A stretch of 26,819 nucleotides of DNA from a virus, in IMG/VR virus record IMGVR_UViG_3300035698_017414, positions 1 to 26,819 of that record; one strand, 5' to 3'. A program made the position numbers and the translations under genes. How positions within the stretch are numbered: position 1 is the first letter of the stretch; the number at the start of each line of letters is the position of its first letter. Positions 9,237 through 26,714 of this stretch are shown here, piece by piece. The notes beneath the pieces are model-generated. The model saw only the letters and a list, made by a program, of their open reading frames with translations, did no database searches and was not told the DNA's origin.

Positions 9237-9266
9237 AAGTAATAAGTAAATGGAAAGGAGATGGAA

Positions 9267-9902
9267 ATGGGTAAGAAGAAAGTTGGAATGGATATATTCA
9301 TATTGCTAGACAGGACTGGTTCTATGGCAAGCAAATGGGAAGAATCAGTTTCGTCTGTAAACTCTTATGTAAAAGAGATAGCAAAAGATAAGGCTAAGGA
9401 TGTTGTTACTTTAGCAGTATTTGATTCTCAAAGTTATGATGTTTTGAGAGATGCTGTTTCGATTAATGATTGGGAGGATATGGGTAAAGAAGAAGTGTTG
9501 CCAAGGGGATTAACGCCGTTACTTGATTCGTTAATGAAAATTATAGTAACAGCTGAGGAAAAGGGCAATAAGAAAACAACACTAGTTGTTATGACAGATG
9601 GTATGGAGAACGCAAGTAGTGAGAATACTTTGGAAAGTGTGAAGGCAGCTATCGAGAGAGTTAAACAAAAAGACTGGCAAATTAACTTCTTGGGAGCAGA
9701 TTTTGATGCTTTTGGTCAAGCAGGTTTATTAGGAATTCCTGTTGGAGTTACAATGAATTTCATGCAGGGGTGTGCTGGACAAGCTATGTCTTCCACAGCA
9801 CGTACACATTCTGCTTATAGAGGCGGTGCAACTGGGCAATCGCTGTGTTATAGTGATGATGATAGAGCAAATTCAGGAGAGGATTCTGTACAACCAAATT
9901 AG
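9267..9902 (+). CDS. von Willebrand factor A-domain protein
   Basis: AAAGGAG sits immediately before an ATG at 9261 and 6 bases before the in-frame ATG at 9267, so the latter is chosen (211 residues). Nearly the whole protein is a vWA fold. The metal-ion site (MIDAS) is DRTGS (Asp15, Thr17, Ser19), with Thr in place of the more usual Ser, and the second acidic loop is MTDGMEN. vWA domains bind protein partners through this metal. The C-terminal 45 residues are Gly/Ser-rich and acidic. It is the first gene behind its own promoter. A role in complex assembly is general to the fold; the partner is unknown, although the Ro60 protein in this window has another vWA domain. Confidence 0.85.
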   Translation: MGKKKVGMDIFILLDRTGSMASKWEESVSSVNSYVKEIAKDKAKDVVTLAVFDSQSYDVLRDAVSINDWEDMGKEEVLPRGLTPLLDSLMKIIVTAEEKGNKKTTLVVMTDGMENASSENTLESVKAAIERVKQKDWQINFLGADFDAFGQAGLLGIPVGVTMNFMQGCAGQAMSSTARTHSAYRGGATGQSLCYSDDDRANSGEDSVQPN

Positions 9903-15895: not shown

Positions 15896-16731
15896 CAATA
15901 TCAGCCTGTATTATGGTAAAAAATGAAGAAGATTTTATAGAACCATGCTTGAAAAGCATACGAAATGTAGTTGATGAAATTATTTTAATGGATACTGGTT
16001 CTGTTGACGGTACTGTAAAGAAGGCAGCACCTTATGTAGATAGAATGATACATGAACCCTGGAAACAGGATTTTTCTTATCATAGAAACACGCTTAAACA
16101 GTTTGCATCTTGTGACTGGATTCTAAGTATAGATGGTGATGAGGTTATGATAGAGATAACAGAGGATGCATTAATAAATTCTATTAAAGAAGCTGAAATA
16201 GCAAACGCAAATGTATGTTGTTTTAGATTATATAATTTTGGTTATGAAATACCTATTGTTTTAGTAGCAGGTTACGCTAAAAATCAGGCTCTTTTGTATA
16301 GAAATATAGATGAGTTAAAGTGGTATGGAAGAAGGCATAATAAGCTATCCCTAAAAGAGCCAACTAAATGGAATCCAAGTTCAGATAATCCAGAGCTACT
16401 ATTACCTGCTAATGTTGATGTTGGTACTACATACATGAGTCCAACTGTTATTTTTCATCATTATGGTAGGATTAAAAGAAATTGGTTATCGCGTTTTATA
16501 GACCAACTTGAAATAGATAACCCATCTTTTCAAAATGGAAATCTTGATTATGATAAAGCTGTTACGATGTATTTAGATTCTATAGGCATTAAGAAAAGCG
16601 ATTTACACGACCTTCCAACTGTTGTATATGATGAGGTATGCGTAGAGTCACCGCACAAGTTATTTTTATACGATGGACCATATCCTAAGGAGGTAAACTT
16701 TGAAAAAGCTATTAGTACTAGGTTGTGGTAG
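15892..16731 (+). CDS. family 2 glycosyltransferase
   Basis: GT2 enzymes move a sugar from a nucleotide sugar to an acceptor. The GT-A fold signs are present in 279 residues: the opening ACIMVKNEEDFIEPCLKSI, the IILMDTGSVDGTV loop, DFSYHRN and the metal-binding DGDE (Asp81-Asp83) after CDWILSI. The second half has HHYGRIKRNW, with possible catalytic or acceptor contacts. It starts in an ATGA overlap with the previous gene and is the first gene of a cassette with two sulfotransferases. No membrane segment is seen. The acceptor may be a cell-wall glycan, a virion protein or DNA. Confidence 0.9.
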   Translation: MTISACIMVKNEEDFIEPCLKSIRNVVDEIILMDTGSVDGTVKKAAPYVDRMIHEPWKQDFSYHRNTLKQFASCDWILSIDGDEVMIEITEDALINSIKEAEIANANVCCFRLYNFGYEIPIVLVAGYAKNQALLYRNIDELKWYGRRHNKLSLKEPTKWNPSSDNPELLLPANVDVGTTYMSPTVIFHHYGRIKRNWLSRFIDQLEIDNPSFQNGNLDYDKAVTMYLDSIGIKKSDLHDLPTVVYDEVCVESPHKLFLYDGPYPKEVNFEKAISTRLW

Positions 16732-17392
16732 GTCTGGTAACACATTAATGCAAAGCTTGTGTGCTGTAGGGTTTGAAAATGTATATTATACACGAGGAGA
16801 AAAAAGCCCATTAAAACATAAAGATTTAAATCAGGTTCCTAAAGAATACTCATGGGCTGTGTTCAAATGCCCAAGTTTAGTAAGAAGATTGCATGATGCA
16901 CTTCCTGAAAAAGATATGAATGTTATATTTATGTTACGTGACCCTAGAGGGGCTTTAATTTCTAGAAAAATTAGAGAAAAAACAGATAGAAGTAGTCTTG
17001 TTATAGGTAGAGATGATTTATATACGGTTCGTCCTGGAAGATGGGTTGATTCATCTAGATATTATTGGGCTTATCATAAAAATATAAAGATATTACAGGT
17101 AAAATACGAAGACCTACTTACTGACCCTAATAGTATTCAGTTACGTATAGGAAATAGGTTTGGGTTACAAACTAGAATGCCTTTTACAGAATGTTATAAG
17201 CACATGGAAGGTGTTATAGATAAAGGCAATATAGATGCTATGCGCGGTGTGCGCCCCATAGACGCTAGTATGGTTGACTCTTGGAAGAAATGTTCTAAGG
17301 AAGACACAGAATATTTACGTAAATGCTTTGATGTATATCCAGAAATGGTTGGTTGGATGAAGAGGTACGGTTATACATATGAGAAAATTTAA
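16700..17392 (+). CDS. PAPS-dependent sulfotransferase-like protein (1)
   Basis: This 230-residue protein starts at TTG 16700, with AAGGAGG at 16687-16693, 6 bases away and inside the GT2 gene. The 5'-phosphosulfate loop is GCGRSGNT (residues 8-15). The 3'-phosphate motif is VIFMLRDPRGALIS, with Arg80 and Ser88 at the family spacing. VKYEDLLTDP matches the later conserved segment. These enzymes take sulfate from PAPS to a hydroxyl or amine. A 32-base overlap with GT2 couples the two proteins. The acceptor is unknown. Confidence 0.85.
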   Translation: MKKLLVLGCGRSGNTLMQSLCAVGFENVYYTRGEKSPLKHKDLNQVPKEYSWAVFKCPSLVRRLHDALPEKDMNVIFMLRDPRGALISRKIREKTDRSSLVIGRDDLYTVRPGRWVDSSRYYWAYHKNIKILQVKYEDLLTDPNSIQLRIGNRFGLQTRMPFTECYKHMEGVIDKGNIDAMRGVRPIDASMVDSWKKCSKEDTEYLRKCFDVYPEMVGWMKRYGYTYEKI

Positions 17393-18180
17393 TGCTACCT
17401 AATTTTATAATTATAGGAGCCCAAAAAGCTGGAACAACTGCATTTAGAGGACGCCTATCGTTTCATCCTGAAATATATATGGTAAAAAATGAAATACATT
17501 ATTTTAATGATAGGTTAATAACATCTCCTAGAAAAAGAACGTACTCTGAGTTAGGTATAGATTGGTATAAAAGTAAGTTTAATGAATTTAATGGGGAGAA
17601 AGCAGTAGGGGAAAAATCACCTGATTACTGTTATGATAGTAACGTACCTAAACGTATGTATGAGCTTTTACCTGATGCTAAGTTAATAATGATAGTTAGG
17701 AATCCTGTTGATAGAGCATTTTCTTCGTACAAACACCAAGTGGTAGCTGGTAGAGAAAATCTATCTTTAGAAGAAGCGATAGGAAGGGAAAGTTTTAGAA
17801 TGAAGCACAATCCTGATGGTTTGTTGCACTTTTCATATCTTTATCAAGGATACTATTTTAACCATATTACAAGATTTCTAGAATACTATGATAAGAATAA
17901 ATGTTTGTTTATAACTTTTGAGGAACTATGTACTAATCCTAAACAAGTATTCAAAGATACATTCGAGTTTCTAGAAGTAGATTCTTCTTTTACAAATAAA
18001 AGGTTTAAAGAATACTCACCTAGAGTGGAGTATATAGATATATCTCCTATAAGAGGCATAAATAAGGGAAAGAAAATTAGCATTAAACTAAACTCAGATA
18101 CTAGGAAATTATTAGAAAAAGTATATGCTAAGCATAATAGGAAACTAGAACAACTAATAGATAAGGAGATACAATGGTAG
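17392..18180 (+). CDS. PAPS-dependent sulfotransferase-like protein (2), heparan-type
   Basis: The 262-residue protein has FIIIGAQKAGTT (loop at residues 9-16), AVGEKSPDYCY, and LIMIVRNPVDRAFSSY with Arg103 and Ser111. These three motifs are those of the heparan-sulfate and glycan sulfotransferases (NDST-type domain). FEELCTNPKQVF is the later conserved segment. It is a different subtype from the preceding sulfotransferase, so two distinct acceptor positions are likely. The gene starts in TAATG with the previous stop. No membrane anchor is present, so it should be cytoplasmic. Confidence 0.9.
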   Translation: MLPNFIIIGAQKAGTTAFRGRLSFHPEIYMVKNEIHYFNDRLITSPRKRTYSELGIDWYKSKFNEFNGEKAVGEKSPDYCYDSNVPKRMYELLPDAKLIMIVRNPVDRAFSSYKHQVVAGRENLSLEEAIGRESFRMKHNPDGLLHFSYLYQGYYFNHITRFLEYYDKNKCLFITFEELCTNPKQVFKDTFEFLEVDSSFTNKRFKEYSPRVEYIDISPIRGINKGKKISIKLNSDTRKLLEKVYAKHNRKLEQLIDKEIQW

Positions 18181-18593
18181 AGTATGACGCACAAGTGCCT
18201 CATTACGCTTTCATAGGGCGTTGGTGTCCTTTGCATAAAGGGCATATATCTATAATCAAAAAGAAACTTGAAGAAAAGAAGCGTCCAGTGTTGATTCTAG
18301 TAAGAGATACATCTTTTGACCAGTATAATGCTGCTTTTAGAGCTAAGATGGTAAGATGCTGGCTAGATACTGAAGGAATAGCAGGTAAGGTGGTAATCAT
18401 ACCAGACATAGAAGGAGTTTACTATGGACGAGGAGTGGGCTATAAAATTGAGATGGTGGACGTTGATGAAGTCACTAAAGGTATCTCTGCCACCGAAATA
18501 CGTAAACGCATTGGTGATGGAGACAGTTCTTGGATGGAACTCGTTGCTCCAGGTATCGCAGACTTTCTTAGAAAAGAATGGAAGGAGGTATAG
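18174..18593 (+). CDS. small cytidylyltransferase-like adenylyltransferase
   Basis: This 139-residue protein has the nucleotidyltransferase signature: FIGRWCPLHKGH with His21 and His24, and ISATEIRKRI (104-113) as the second phosphate motif. The family attaches a nucleotide from NTP to a small acceptor, as in NMN adenylyltransferase and ATP sulfurylase. Because APS kinase and two PAPS users flank it, a sulfate-activating role (making APS from ATP and sulfate) is attractive. However, it is far shorter than ordinary ATP sulfurylases, so an NMN or other acceptor is equally possible on sequence alone. It overlaps the previous gene by 7 bases. Confidence 0.75.
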   Translation: MVEYDAQVPHYAFIGRWCPLHKGHISIIKKKLEEKKRPVLILVRDTSFDQYNAAFRAKMVRCWLDTEGIAGKVVIIPDIEGVYYGRGVGYKIEMVDVDEVTKGISATEIRKRIGDGDSSWMELVAPGIADFLRKEWKEV

Positions 18594-18596
18594 AAT

Positions 18597-18719
18597 ATGG
18601 CAACTAAAAAAGGAACGCCGAAAAGAGATGGCTCTGGAAAAGGTGTAAGGAAAAATAAAGGTCGGGGTGGCTGTAAAACTACTAAACAAACAGGTCAAGG
18701 ACGAAATAAAAGTAAGTAA
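18597..18719 (+). CDS. 40-residue Gly/Lys-rich basic miniprotein
   Basis: AAGGAGG lies 8 bases before the ATG. The sequence has GKGVRKNKGRGGC in its centre and ends RNKSK. It is very basic, contains a single Cys and has no hydrophobic core. It is probably disordered until bound to nucleic acid or an acidic partner. The stop overlaps the next start as TAATG, showing it belongs to the operon. Function unknown. Confidence 0.6.
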   Translation: MATKKGTPKRDGSGKGVRKNKGRGGCKTTKQTGQGRNKSK

Positions 18720-18937
18720 TGAAGAAGTTTCATGCATTAAAAAGGAGAAGTTTTCTAAAGGCGTTTTTGTATAGGATTGTAGGTAGTGCAACAACTTTTA
18801 TTGTAGCATTGATATGGACAAGAAAAATATCTGTATCAGCAGGAGTTTTTGTTGCAGATTTTATATTAAAAACAATATTGCTTTATGTGTATGAAAGAGT
18901 TTGGGACCATATACAGTGGGGTAGGGCTAAAGAATGA
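18719..18937 (+). CDS. DUF2061 membrane protein
   Basis: The 72-residue protein has the DUF2061 pattern: a basic start (KKFHALKRRSFLKAFLYRIVGS), a first membrane helix around TTFIVALIW, a second around AGVFVADFILKTILLYVY, and the conserved ending YERVWDHIQWG. The family function is unknown. From memory, DUF2061 genes often neighbour sulfate-activation genes such as cysC, which is the case here. That supports a link with sulfate use or transport, not proven. Confidence 0.85.
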   Translation: MKKFHALKRRSFLKAFLYRIVGSATTFIVALIWTRKISVSAGVFVADFILKTILLYVYERVWDHIQWGRAKE

Positions 18938-19461
18938 AAGAAATAAGACCGTGGTTGCCTTATAAGGCAACAGAGATTATAGACCATTACTTAGATTCAA
19001 ACCATGTTGGTTTTGAATATGGTTCTGGTTGGTCTACGCTTTGGTTTGCTGAAAGAACTTACTTATTAGTTTCTATTGACCATTCTGTTGAATGGGGAGA
19101 TAAAACTGAAAAACGCATAGAAAAATATGGGGTAGATAATGTAGTGTTTACAGTAGAAGAAGATTTAGATACATATGCAGATTTTATTAACATATTCCCA
19201 GACAATATGTTTGATTACATATTAGTTGATGGTAGAAATAGAAATGAATGTGTTATAAATGCAATACCAAAGATTAAATATAATGGATTGCTTATTGTTG
19301 ATAATACAAATAGGATAAGGTATCATACCGCATTAAAATTAATACCTTCTGACTGGGATAGAATAATAGTACAAGGTAAAGGAAAGGATAAGGCAGCACC
19401 TTATAAAGAAAATGGCGGTGGAATGGAAACTACTATATGGTTTAAGGAGGGTAAATGTTAG
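18934..19461 (+). CDS. class I methyltransferase-fold protein
   Basis: This 175-residue protein has a nucleotide-binding opening GFEYGSGWSTLWFAE (motif I-like) followed by LVSIDHSVEW, then FDYILVDGRNRNE and NGLLIVDNTNR. This is the Rossmann pattern of SAM-dependent methyltransferases acting on small molecules or glycans. The GSGWSTL form is seen in a subgroup that may not be active methyltransferases. ATGA overlaps with the DUF2061 gene. In this cassette it could O-methylate the same glycan; that is inferred. Confidence 0.7.
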   Translation: MKEIRPWLPYKATEIIDHYLDSNHVGFEYGSGWSTLWFAERTYLLVSIDHSVEWGDKTEKRIEKYGVDNVVFTVEEDLDTYADFINIFPDNMFDYILVDGRNRNECVINAIPKIKYNGLLIVDNTNRIRYHTALKLIPSDWDRIIVQGKGKDKAAPYKENGGGMETTIWFKEGKC

Positions 19462-19991
19462 TTATATGGTTAACTGGAGTACCATGCTCAGGAAAAACAA
19501 CTATATCAAACGAATTAGTGAAGATGTTTGAAAAAGACAGAATAGATTATCAGCAATTGGATGGTGATATTATACGTAATACACCATTATCAGAAGATGT
19601 TGGTTTTACTCCTGAAGATAGGGCAAAACATATAAGAAGGATGGGATGGCTTTCGAAAATGCTTGTTGACCACGGAATATATGTTATCTGCTCTTTCGTA
19701 TCCCCAAATATAGAAGTTAGAGAACAAGTACGCAGTATGATAGGCGAAAAACGGTTTGTAGAGGTTTATGTTGAGTGTCCTATAGATGTTGCAATAGAGC
19801 GAGACGTTAAGGGTATGTATAAGAAAGCGCTGGCTGGAGAAATAGCTAATTTTACAGGGGTTGACGCTGTTTATGAACCCCCTGAAACGCCAAATGTATG
19901 GGTACACACAGATGAGGAGAACGTTAATATTAGTGTGGACAGTATATATAGGTATATATTAGCACAACAAGGAGGTTGTTTATGCGAGTAA
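19455..19991 (+). CDS. cysC: adenylylsulfate (APS) kinase
   Basis: The enzyme phosphorylates APS to PAPS, the sulfate donor for sulfotransferases. In 178 residues it shows Walker A GVPCSGKTT (8-16), the DGD motif (36-38), FTPEDRAKHIRRMG, and the family signature MYKKALAGEIANFTGVDAVY, which is followed by EPPETPNV. AAGGAGG precedes the ATG. Its length is that of stand-alone CysC. It closes the cassette containing two sulfotransferases and the small adenylyltransferase, so PAPS supply for phage-directed sulfation is the obvious role. Confidence 0.95.
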   Translation: MLVIWLTGVPCSGKTTISNELVKMFEKDRIDYQQLDGDIIRNTPLSEDVGFTPEDRAKHIRRMGWLSKMLVDHGIYVICSFVSPNIEVREQVRSMIGEKRFVEVYVECPIDVAIERDVKGMYKKALAGEIANFTGVDAVYEPPETPNVWVHTDEENVNISVDSIYRYILAQQGGCLCE

Positions 19992-23743: not shown

Positions 23744-23772
23744 TTGACAAACCTCGTTATATGTGGTATAAT
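23744..23772 (+). promoter_or_regulatory. consensus promoter for the Ro60/RNA operon
   Basis: TTGACA (23744-23749) and TATAAT (23767-23772) are 17 bases apart, with a TGTGG extended -10 identical to that of the promoter at 2875. An A/T-rich tract with several A-runs lies upstream (23705-23743), which may act as an UP element. Transcription should start near 23780 and run through the Ro60 gene into the RNA array. Confidence 0.88.
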
Positions 23773-23819
23773 AGGTATATAAGATGGAATAGACGGAACG
23801 GATGGGAAAGGAGCCCAGA

Positions 23820-25358: not shown

Positions 25359-25369
25359 AAATAGAATTA

Positions 25370-25426
25370 GGTGCCGTAGATAAGAGATACTTCTTATGGG
25401 AAACATACTCTTATCGTTTGTAGCCC
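25370..25426 (+). ncRNA. Y-like RNA unit 1
   Basis: This is the shortest unit (57 nt). GATAAGAG (25379-25386) pairs perfectly with CTCTTATC (25408-25415). A terminal hairpin, TATG-GGAAA-CATA (25395-25407), stacks beneath the second strand, leaving ATACTTCT as a one-sided bulge. The base is closed by GGT (25370-25372) with GCC (25423-25425). It differs from the others by GTGCC in the 5' block and TGTAGCCC in the 3' block. Confidence 0.75.
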
Positions 25427-25437
25427 TTCTAATAATT

Positions 25438-25529
25438 GGGTGTCGTAGGTTAGAGCTACTTCATTAAATGTAATGGGAACGTCTAGGTGAATCTTAGGCA
25501 ACAAAATATCTCTAATTGACTGTAACCCC
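25438..25529 (+). ncRNA. Y-like RNA unit 2
   Basis: GGTTAGAG (25448-25455) pairs with CTCTAATT (25510-25517) in 8 pairs, two of them G-U. The base is GGGT with ACCC. The loop carries two local hairpins: CATTA-AATG-TAATG (25462-25475) and CTAGG-TGAAT-CTTAG (25483-25497). The 92-nt length is within the usual range of Y RNAs. Confidence 0.8.
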
Positions 25530-25544
25530 ATTTTATTAAGAACT

Positions 25545-25644
25545 GAGTGTCGTAAAAAAGAGTTACTTCACATTAAGCCCGAAATAGGCGGTAAACTAGT
25601 CCGCAAATGACAAAAAACTAGATTCTCTTTTTGCCTGTAACCTC
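25545..25644 (+). ncRNA. Y-like RNA unit 3
   Basis: AAAAAGAG (25555-25562) pairs perfectly with CTCTTTTT (25625-25632). The base is GAGT with ACCTC, which needs one bulged C, so the substitution of G by A in the 5' block is partly balanced by T in the 3' block. The 55-nt loop contains GCGG (25588-25591) and CCGC (25601-25604) as a hairpin. It is the longest unit (100 nt). Confidence 0.8.
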
Positions 25645-25666
25645 TGTTCTTTATTAGGTAATTATT

Positions 25667-25730
25667 GGGTGTCGTAGATTGGACTTACTTCGTTACTTTC
25701 AAAACAAAACGTCCTTTCGCTTGTAACCCC
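25667..25730 (+). ncRNA. Y-like RNA unit 4
   Basis: GATTGGAC (25677-25684) faces GTCCTTTC (25711-25718): a 4-bp GGAC/GTCC stem, two U-U mismatches, then GA/TC. The other units use AGAG or ATAG here, so both strands have changed together. The base is GGGT with ACCC. The loop is an A/C-rich stretch without obvious pairing. Confidence 0.75.
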
Positions 25731-25739
25731 TCATTTTTA

Positions 25740-25813
25740 GGTGTCGTAGGGTATAGTTACTTCGTTAAATTAAACAAAGGGCTCCTAAACCAAACTTTAT
25801 CCGGTTGTTACCC
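25740..25813 (+). ncRNA. Y-like RNA unit 5
   Basis: GGGTATAG (25749-25756) pairs with CTTTATCC (25795-25802) at seven of eight positions, with one U-U mismatch. The base is GGT with ACC, and the 3' block reads TGTTACCC. It ends about 15 bases before the ribosome site of the next gene, so the mature RNA end must be made by cleavage. Confidence 0.75.
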
Positions 25814-25844
25814 TAAACTATTAACACAGGAAAGGTGTGAATCA

Positions 25845-26657: not shown

Positions 26658-26683
26658 CAATGCAGGGACGTCTCATTCTAAGG

Positions 26684-26714
26684 GCAGGGGCAATTAACAG
26701 CTCCTGCTTTTTTT
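26684..26714 (+). terminator. rho-independent terminator
   Basis: GCAGGGG (26684-26690) pairs with CTCCTGC (26701-26707) in a 7-bp stem with one G-U, a 10-nt loop, and then seven T residues. It is the only strong intrinsic terminator found on the right side and probably ends the Ro60/RNA transcript. From 26715 to the window end I see no gene or confident signal. Confidence 0.88.

Follow-up and report, generated by a model that had tools for sequence, protein, structure and literature searches.

Likely Y RNAs near Ro60 genes have reportedly been identified by Chen et al. (2014; RNA 20:1715) in more than 250 species of bacteria and phages, each with one or more tRNA-like RNAs. Bacterial Y RNAs share a plan of a basal stem with a tRNA-like insert, according to excerpts of PMC8394870 and PMC6181284, which also describe a Deinococcus Y RNA that tethers the Ro-family protein Rsr to PNPase; in the passages of PMC6181284, PNPase is bound by a two-hairpin arrangement. 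The Ro60 sites on vertebrate Y RNA comprise a single bulged C with a 3-nt bulge opposite (excerpts of PMC4726728). Phages also encode Ro60 homologues. The Ro60 of Thermus phage phiLo has a solved structure (9l5y), and in Listeria phage CKA15 highly transcribed regions less than 2 kb from an Rsr-like gene are suggested to be Y RNAs (PMC12282133). The TROVE gene of phage crAss001 is given as an early gene in an excerpt of PMC10136315, and such early expression would suit a takeover of host RNA metabolism.

Here, we describe five RNA units beside a Ro60/Rsr gene in a phage genome fragment, the 26,819-base virus record IMGVR_UViG_3300035698_017414, the whole of which is referred to as the window. 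The units are very probably Y RNAs encoded by the phage in an array, and would serve the adjacent Ro60/Rsr homologue as its non-coding partners. Structure and genomic context strongly support the array as a further example of a kind known from bacteria and some phages, and a five-member array without a tRNA mimic is a modest variation on the known Ro60–Y RNA kind.

The locus resembles the Deinococcus Rsr–Y RNA–PNPase complex (RYPER) in combining a Ro-family ring with linked RNAs, and its core matches RNAs of D. gobiensis. On plasmid P2 of that organism, two computationally identified units lie upstream of the TROVE gene (rsr) with the same core as in the window (TGGTGAAG ... TTCCTTC ... TTCCC); the inner helix pairs at 8/8 positions in both, the outer helices have 5 and 7 bp, the N:N' pair described below is G-C, and one unit carries T- and D-arm-like sequences. 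Nevertheless, there are differences from RYPER: the array is phage-borne, it has five units, and none of them has a tRNA-like arm. Window unit 2 is predicted to form two hairpins, like the PNPase-binding arrangement in the excerpts of PMC6181284.

The YrlA/Yrl RNAs of rsr–rtcB operons likewise combine a basal Ro stem with a variable apical module and lie beside rsr, but the window units lack the D, T and acceptor arms of the tRNA-like domain, and assignment to the YrlA class was therefore rejected. Among the window ORFs scanned, which are a part of all its ORFs, none was found to encode RtcB, RtcA or RtcR. An RNA repair layout is present on a plasmid of Rhizobium sp. NLR16a (L215:4007-4592), where rtcR is followed by the TROVE gene, a gap that contains tRNA-like units, and rtcB; the core sequence of these units between rsr and rtcB differs from that of the window. 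With vertebrate Ro60–Y RNA, the window units share a stem that runs end to end, with a single base bulged from one strand and three nucleotides from the other, although the sequence is different, there is no Rfam match and the bulged base in the covarying register is U. As in phages CKA15 (compared by its description) and phiLo, the Ro60 homologue is phage-encoded; the stretch of phiLo that was scanned contained no unit of the window's kind.

Gene order and transcription signals

The ORF upstream of the units encodes a Ro60/Rsr homologue with a predicted Ro60-like ring fold (Table 1). Its mechanical start is at 23802 and its probable ATG is preceded by AAAGGAG at 23807-23813. The protein matches the TROVE family (PF05731, 1.9e-31) and the Ro60 vWA domain (PF25045, 1.5e-8) in Pfam, and PHROG 850, 'RNA-binding protein' (1.5e-57). 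An AlphaFold2 model (pLDDT 86.7, pTM 0.85) gave 13 structural matches in the PDB at E<=0.001, all of them Ro60/TROVE proteins (TM 0.56-0.72), including 1yvp and 2i91 (Ro autoantigen with RNA), Deinococcus Rsr and phiLo Ro60. Residues D334, S336, S338, T406 and D430 are invariant in 25 Ro proteins and fall in a DxSxS...T...D pattern, which we take to be the vWA metal-site motif. A second vWA-like protein (9261-9902; PHROG 7371, unknown function) is encoded far from the Ro gene.

In type III toxin–antitoxin systems, too, a protein gene adjoins tandem repeats of a small RNA, and on this reading the units would be the repeat antitoxin RNA. We give this reading hardly any credence, as the neighbour is a TROVE and vWA protein with a Ro60-like predicted fold rather than an RNase toxin, and neither it nor the downstream ORF has a match in PADLOC. 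An anti-phage system was dropped as a reading of the locus on the same lack of a PADLOC match.

Table 1. Features of the Ro60/Rsr locus in the window.
Feature	Coordinates	Strand	Description
Sigma-70-type promoter-like site	23744..23772	+	TTGACA-17-TATAAT, 12/12 consensus, extended TG
Ro60/Rsr homologue, 512 aa	23820..25358	+	Predicted TROVE ring and Ro60-type vWA
Putative Y RNA unit 1	25369..25427	+	Insert 14 nt; N:N' C-G; inner helix 8/8
Putative Y RNA unit 2	25437..25530	+	Insert 47 nt, predicted two hairpins; N:N' T-A; inner helix 8/8
Putative Y RNA unit 3	25542..25647	+	Insert 55 nt; N:N' T-A; inner helix 8/8
Putative Y RNA unit 4	25667..25730	+	Insert 19 nt; N:N' T-A; inner helix 6/8
Putative Y RNA unit 5	25736..25817	+	Insert 31 nt; 6-bp outer helix; N:N' T-A; inner helix 7/8
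Downstream ORF, 214 aa	25845..26489	+	Function unassigned; no family match
Terminator-like hairpin with T tail	26680..26711	+	12 pairs, 6 GC; sole strong one downstream of Ro

The Ro gene and the downstream ORF, for which Pfam, PHROGs and PADLOC gave zero matches, lie on the same strand, and the window scan detected neither a strong promoter nor a strong terminator in the interval. The promoter-like site is a consensus match alone, such sites being no commoner in the whole scan than in shuffles, and a 9/12 promoter-like match just 5' of unit 1 is at chance level in the consensus scan. The arrangement suggests that one transcript, running from the promoter-like site to the terminator-like hairpin, likely spans Ro, the units and the downstream ORF; the last probably shares the transcription unit with Ro and the units.

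With this layout, and with unit 1 beginning 10 nt past the ro stop codon, the units might instead act in cis, as hairpins that bind Ro, are never released from the 3' part of the ro message and autoregulate, stabilize or insulate it. We consider this unlikely, since in many relatives the units precede ro or are separated from it by more than 1 kb, and the tRNA-like inserts of some relatives fit a free RNA; cis and free roles could coexist. Free Y RNAs remain our preferred reading of the array.

Elsewhere in the window (16700-19991), a sulfation gene set adjoins a glycosyltransferase and consists of two sulfotransferase-domain proteins, an adenylylsulfate kinase and an ATP-sulfurylase-like nucleotidyltransferase, the match of the last being below the cut-off. 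A surface polymer or another substrate could be the target of modification.

Fold, covariation and register of the units

The five units of the original prediction stand, and lie on the + strand; their extent was corrected from 25370-25813 to 25369-25817. Each unit contains a pair of complementary 8-nt strands; as proposed, the first follows GTA directly, and the second ends 3 nt short of TGTAACC, TGTAGCC or TGTTACC. Across the five units, 37 of the 40 positions pair, which is the best of all 120 permutations of the strands (mean 30.2; second best 35). The single-unit folding energies are unremarkable, with z-scores of -1.79, -1.72, +0.89, -1.18 and +0.56 for units 1-5, none significant, so the structural claim rests on comparison and not on thermodynamics. 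The free minimum-energy folds of units 1-4 do not use the core with the bulged U, and that of unit 3 lacks the core.

For the comparison, units were collected from the window and from related loci. There were 98 matches to the 5' motif (82 distinct) from 80 sources, and after 21 without a 3' motif had been left out, a set of 61 units remained. Their 3' halves were picked by motif alone and pairing was never used: TGTAGCTCA-type sites were excluded and TGTT was preferred, as choosing the nearest motif hit D-arms in some tRNA-like units. Two of the 61 rows (L032 and L033) had been found by a DNA pattern; the others came from the window itself or through protein searches, which take no account of the RNA. 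Pairing is well above that obtained with shuffled partners in the inner stem (421/488 versus 295.9 +/- 8.2), in N:N' (59/61 versus 27.2 +/- 3.5) and in the outer helix (264/305 versus 167.1 +/- 6.9).

The proposed check for covariation was carried out with a custom script modelled on R-scape (not R-scape itself), using a tree-based null of 200 simulated sets. When the 1176 column pairs are ranked, the top 15 coincide one for one with the variable pairs of the fold, of which there are 15; eight of these are significant at E<0.05, compared with none outside it. Rows from one locus or from related loci are not independent, which the tree null corrects in part. G-U pairs outnumber A-C mismatches by 61 to 18 in the set (p=1.3e-6); RNA is therefore the selected molecule, and the excess points to that of the + strand. 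Together with the tree-null covariation, it supports the idea of selection for RNA structure. It also speaks against the units acting as DNA, in the form of protein-binding or attC-like recombination sites, a reading that the tandem arrangement of imperfect inverted repeats, with their constant blocks and variable inserts, might suggest. Symmetry at the DNA level does not produce such a G-U excess and the units adjoin Ro in both phages and bacteria, which leaves a DNA role very improbable.

The fold supported by this comparison begins at its base with an outer helix, followed by one bulged U, the pairs G-C and N-N', and a fixed region of C-G-U-A facing U-G-U-[U/A], which has a 3-nt bulge on the 3' strand. 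Above these lie the 8-bp inner helix and a fixed NUACUUC beside the variable apical insert. With the single bulged U on the 5' strand, 192 of 224 positions of the outer helix pair, compared with 129, 109 and 101 at other offsets, the 3' half being chosen in this count as the nearest 3' motif. The closing GGGT/ACCC helix had been drawn one base out of register: it is the U of GGU that bulges out, and N:N' is the pair that covaries. The supposed T-G variant of unit 1 is accordingly a C-G pair at N:N', where units 2-5 have T-A; both registers are possible in units 2-5 because N' is A. In the family, the earlier T:N' register is possible in 27 of 61 units, whereas N:N' pairs in 59 (G-C 31, T-A 13, C-G 12, A-T 2, G-T 1; unpaired 2). 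The N position uses all four bases and N' follows. Covariation is blind at the nearly invariant C, such that neither a bulge at that position nor the precise bulge of the 3' strand is fixed by it.

The UACUUC block is present even in the shortest units, which have an insert of 11 nt. Its retention there suggests that it is probably part of a Ro-binding module rather than of a tRNA mimic.

Relatives of the units and their tRNA-like arms

A scan of viral contigs with a single protein found no relative; an alignment of four Ro proteins as query gave 73 viral loci. The same alignment was used in a genome search, from which the best 80 of 302 relatives were taken (mostly Bacteroidota, 52-60% identity). 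A search rule that combined the 5' motif with N:N' and pairing located one or more units beside the Ro homologue in 47 of the 73 viral loci and in 71 of these best 80 bacterial loci, and none in 3.04 Mb of shuffled sequence. The conservation of the UGNCGUA, UACUUC and UGU[U/A] blocks beside Ro60 homologues in phages and bacteria fits the earlier suggestion of a motif read by a protein. The rule found no unit in 26 of the 73 viral loci and 9 of the best 80 of 302 bacterial ones, which may reflect true absence or a more divergent core. A relaxed scan without UACUUC added 2 of these 26 viral loci and none of seven remaining annotated phage records; units had been found in 4 of 11 stretches from annotated phages.

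A 16-base DNA pattern matched 46 viral stretches, of which about eight were judged by eye to be true relatives and three of the other 38 passed the search rule; some tens of matches are estimated by chance, for an assumed collection size, and the count of 46 is thus not evidence. A motif-only scan, itself weak with 105 matches in 2.5 Mb of shuffled sequence, found TTACTTC with other cores in several Ro loci without units. Just after the TROVE gene, Bacteroides phage crAss001 (L208:4262) and Arthrobacter phage Atuin (L210:4175, 4627) have TTACTTC/TACTTC with other cores, a weak hint that these are possibly more divergent Y RNAs.

A tRNA-like arm with a T-loop is present in none of the five window units, the T-loop consensus GGTTYRANYC is absent from the + strand of the window, and the window yielded no tRNA in ARAGORN. 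Units with a T-loop are present in 30 of the 73 viral Ro loci and in 62 of the best 80 of 302 bacterial ones, and in many viral and bacterial relatives the inserts include sequences of the T-arm and D-arm, whose order is permuted. Insert lengths in the 61 units cluster at 11-55 nt and at about 76-97 nt, and the window has only the short kind. A tRNA-like unit may lie elsewhere in the phage genome, outside the fragment.

The tRNA-like arms of relatives invite the reading that the units are decoys carried by the phage Ro: by resembling structured or tRNA-like substrates, they would tie up host RNases or Ro-type proteins that target phage RNA; competitive inhibition of an anticodon nuclease is raised for the tRNA-like domain of YrlA in an excerpt of PMC7790460. 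As all five window units lack such an arm, we regard decoys as quite improbable here, and favour Y RNAs that partner the phage Ro.

Searched against Rfam at E<=5, the window gave no Y RNA match and two unrelated sub-threshold matches. Twelve relative loci matched tRNA and tmRNA models only; therefore, Rfam does not cover these RNAs, and we do not treat an Rfam match as a hallmark of Y RNAs. Several tRNAs annotated in GenBank beside a TROVE gene lie within or coincide with Y RNA units: tRNA-Thr of 10KY502B (L206:2343-2410), tRNA-Gln of CcrColossus (L212:1688-1755) and tRNA-Lys of csAssE-Sib (L207:2323-2396). ARAGORN likewise labels Y RNA units as tRNAs in the loci L059 and L033; the latter (L033:8584-8941) lies on a 235,765-base viral contig that also has a tmRNA gene, and the Y RNA unit there is one of 13 tRNAs called by ARAGORN. 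Phage tRNA annotations in GenBank can thus be pieces of Y RNAs.

Possible roles of the phage Ro60 and its RNAs

We propose that a single transcript would carry ro and the five units, and that the five RNAs would be cut out of it and then loaded onto Ro, itself a product of that message. The conserved basal stem would dock on the outside of the phage Ro ring, and the variable apical inserts might gate the ring or recruit partners or effectors. In this way, the Ro–Y RNA particle could steer RNA decay or protection during infection. A more specific and tentative idea, which we hold to be possible but doubtful, is that of a phage Ro particle that works without the tRNA-mimic arm: five Y RNAs with a shared Ro stem and unrelated apical inserts would serve as interchangeable adaptors for several partners and, being cut from the ring's own message, would be supplied in a matching amount.

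The window thus presents a compact, putative phage Ro60–Y RNA locus that is open to testing. The family covariation model, with its bulged U, N:N' pair and UACUUC, finds candidate Y RNAs where Rfam found none. Furthermore, the unrelated apical ends on one stem make the adaptor idea testable for phage Ro60.
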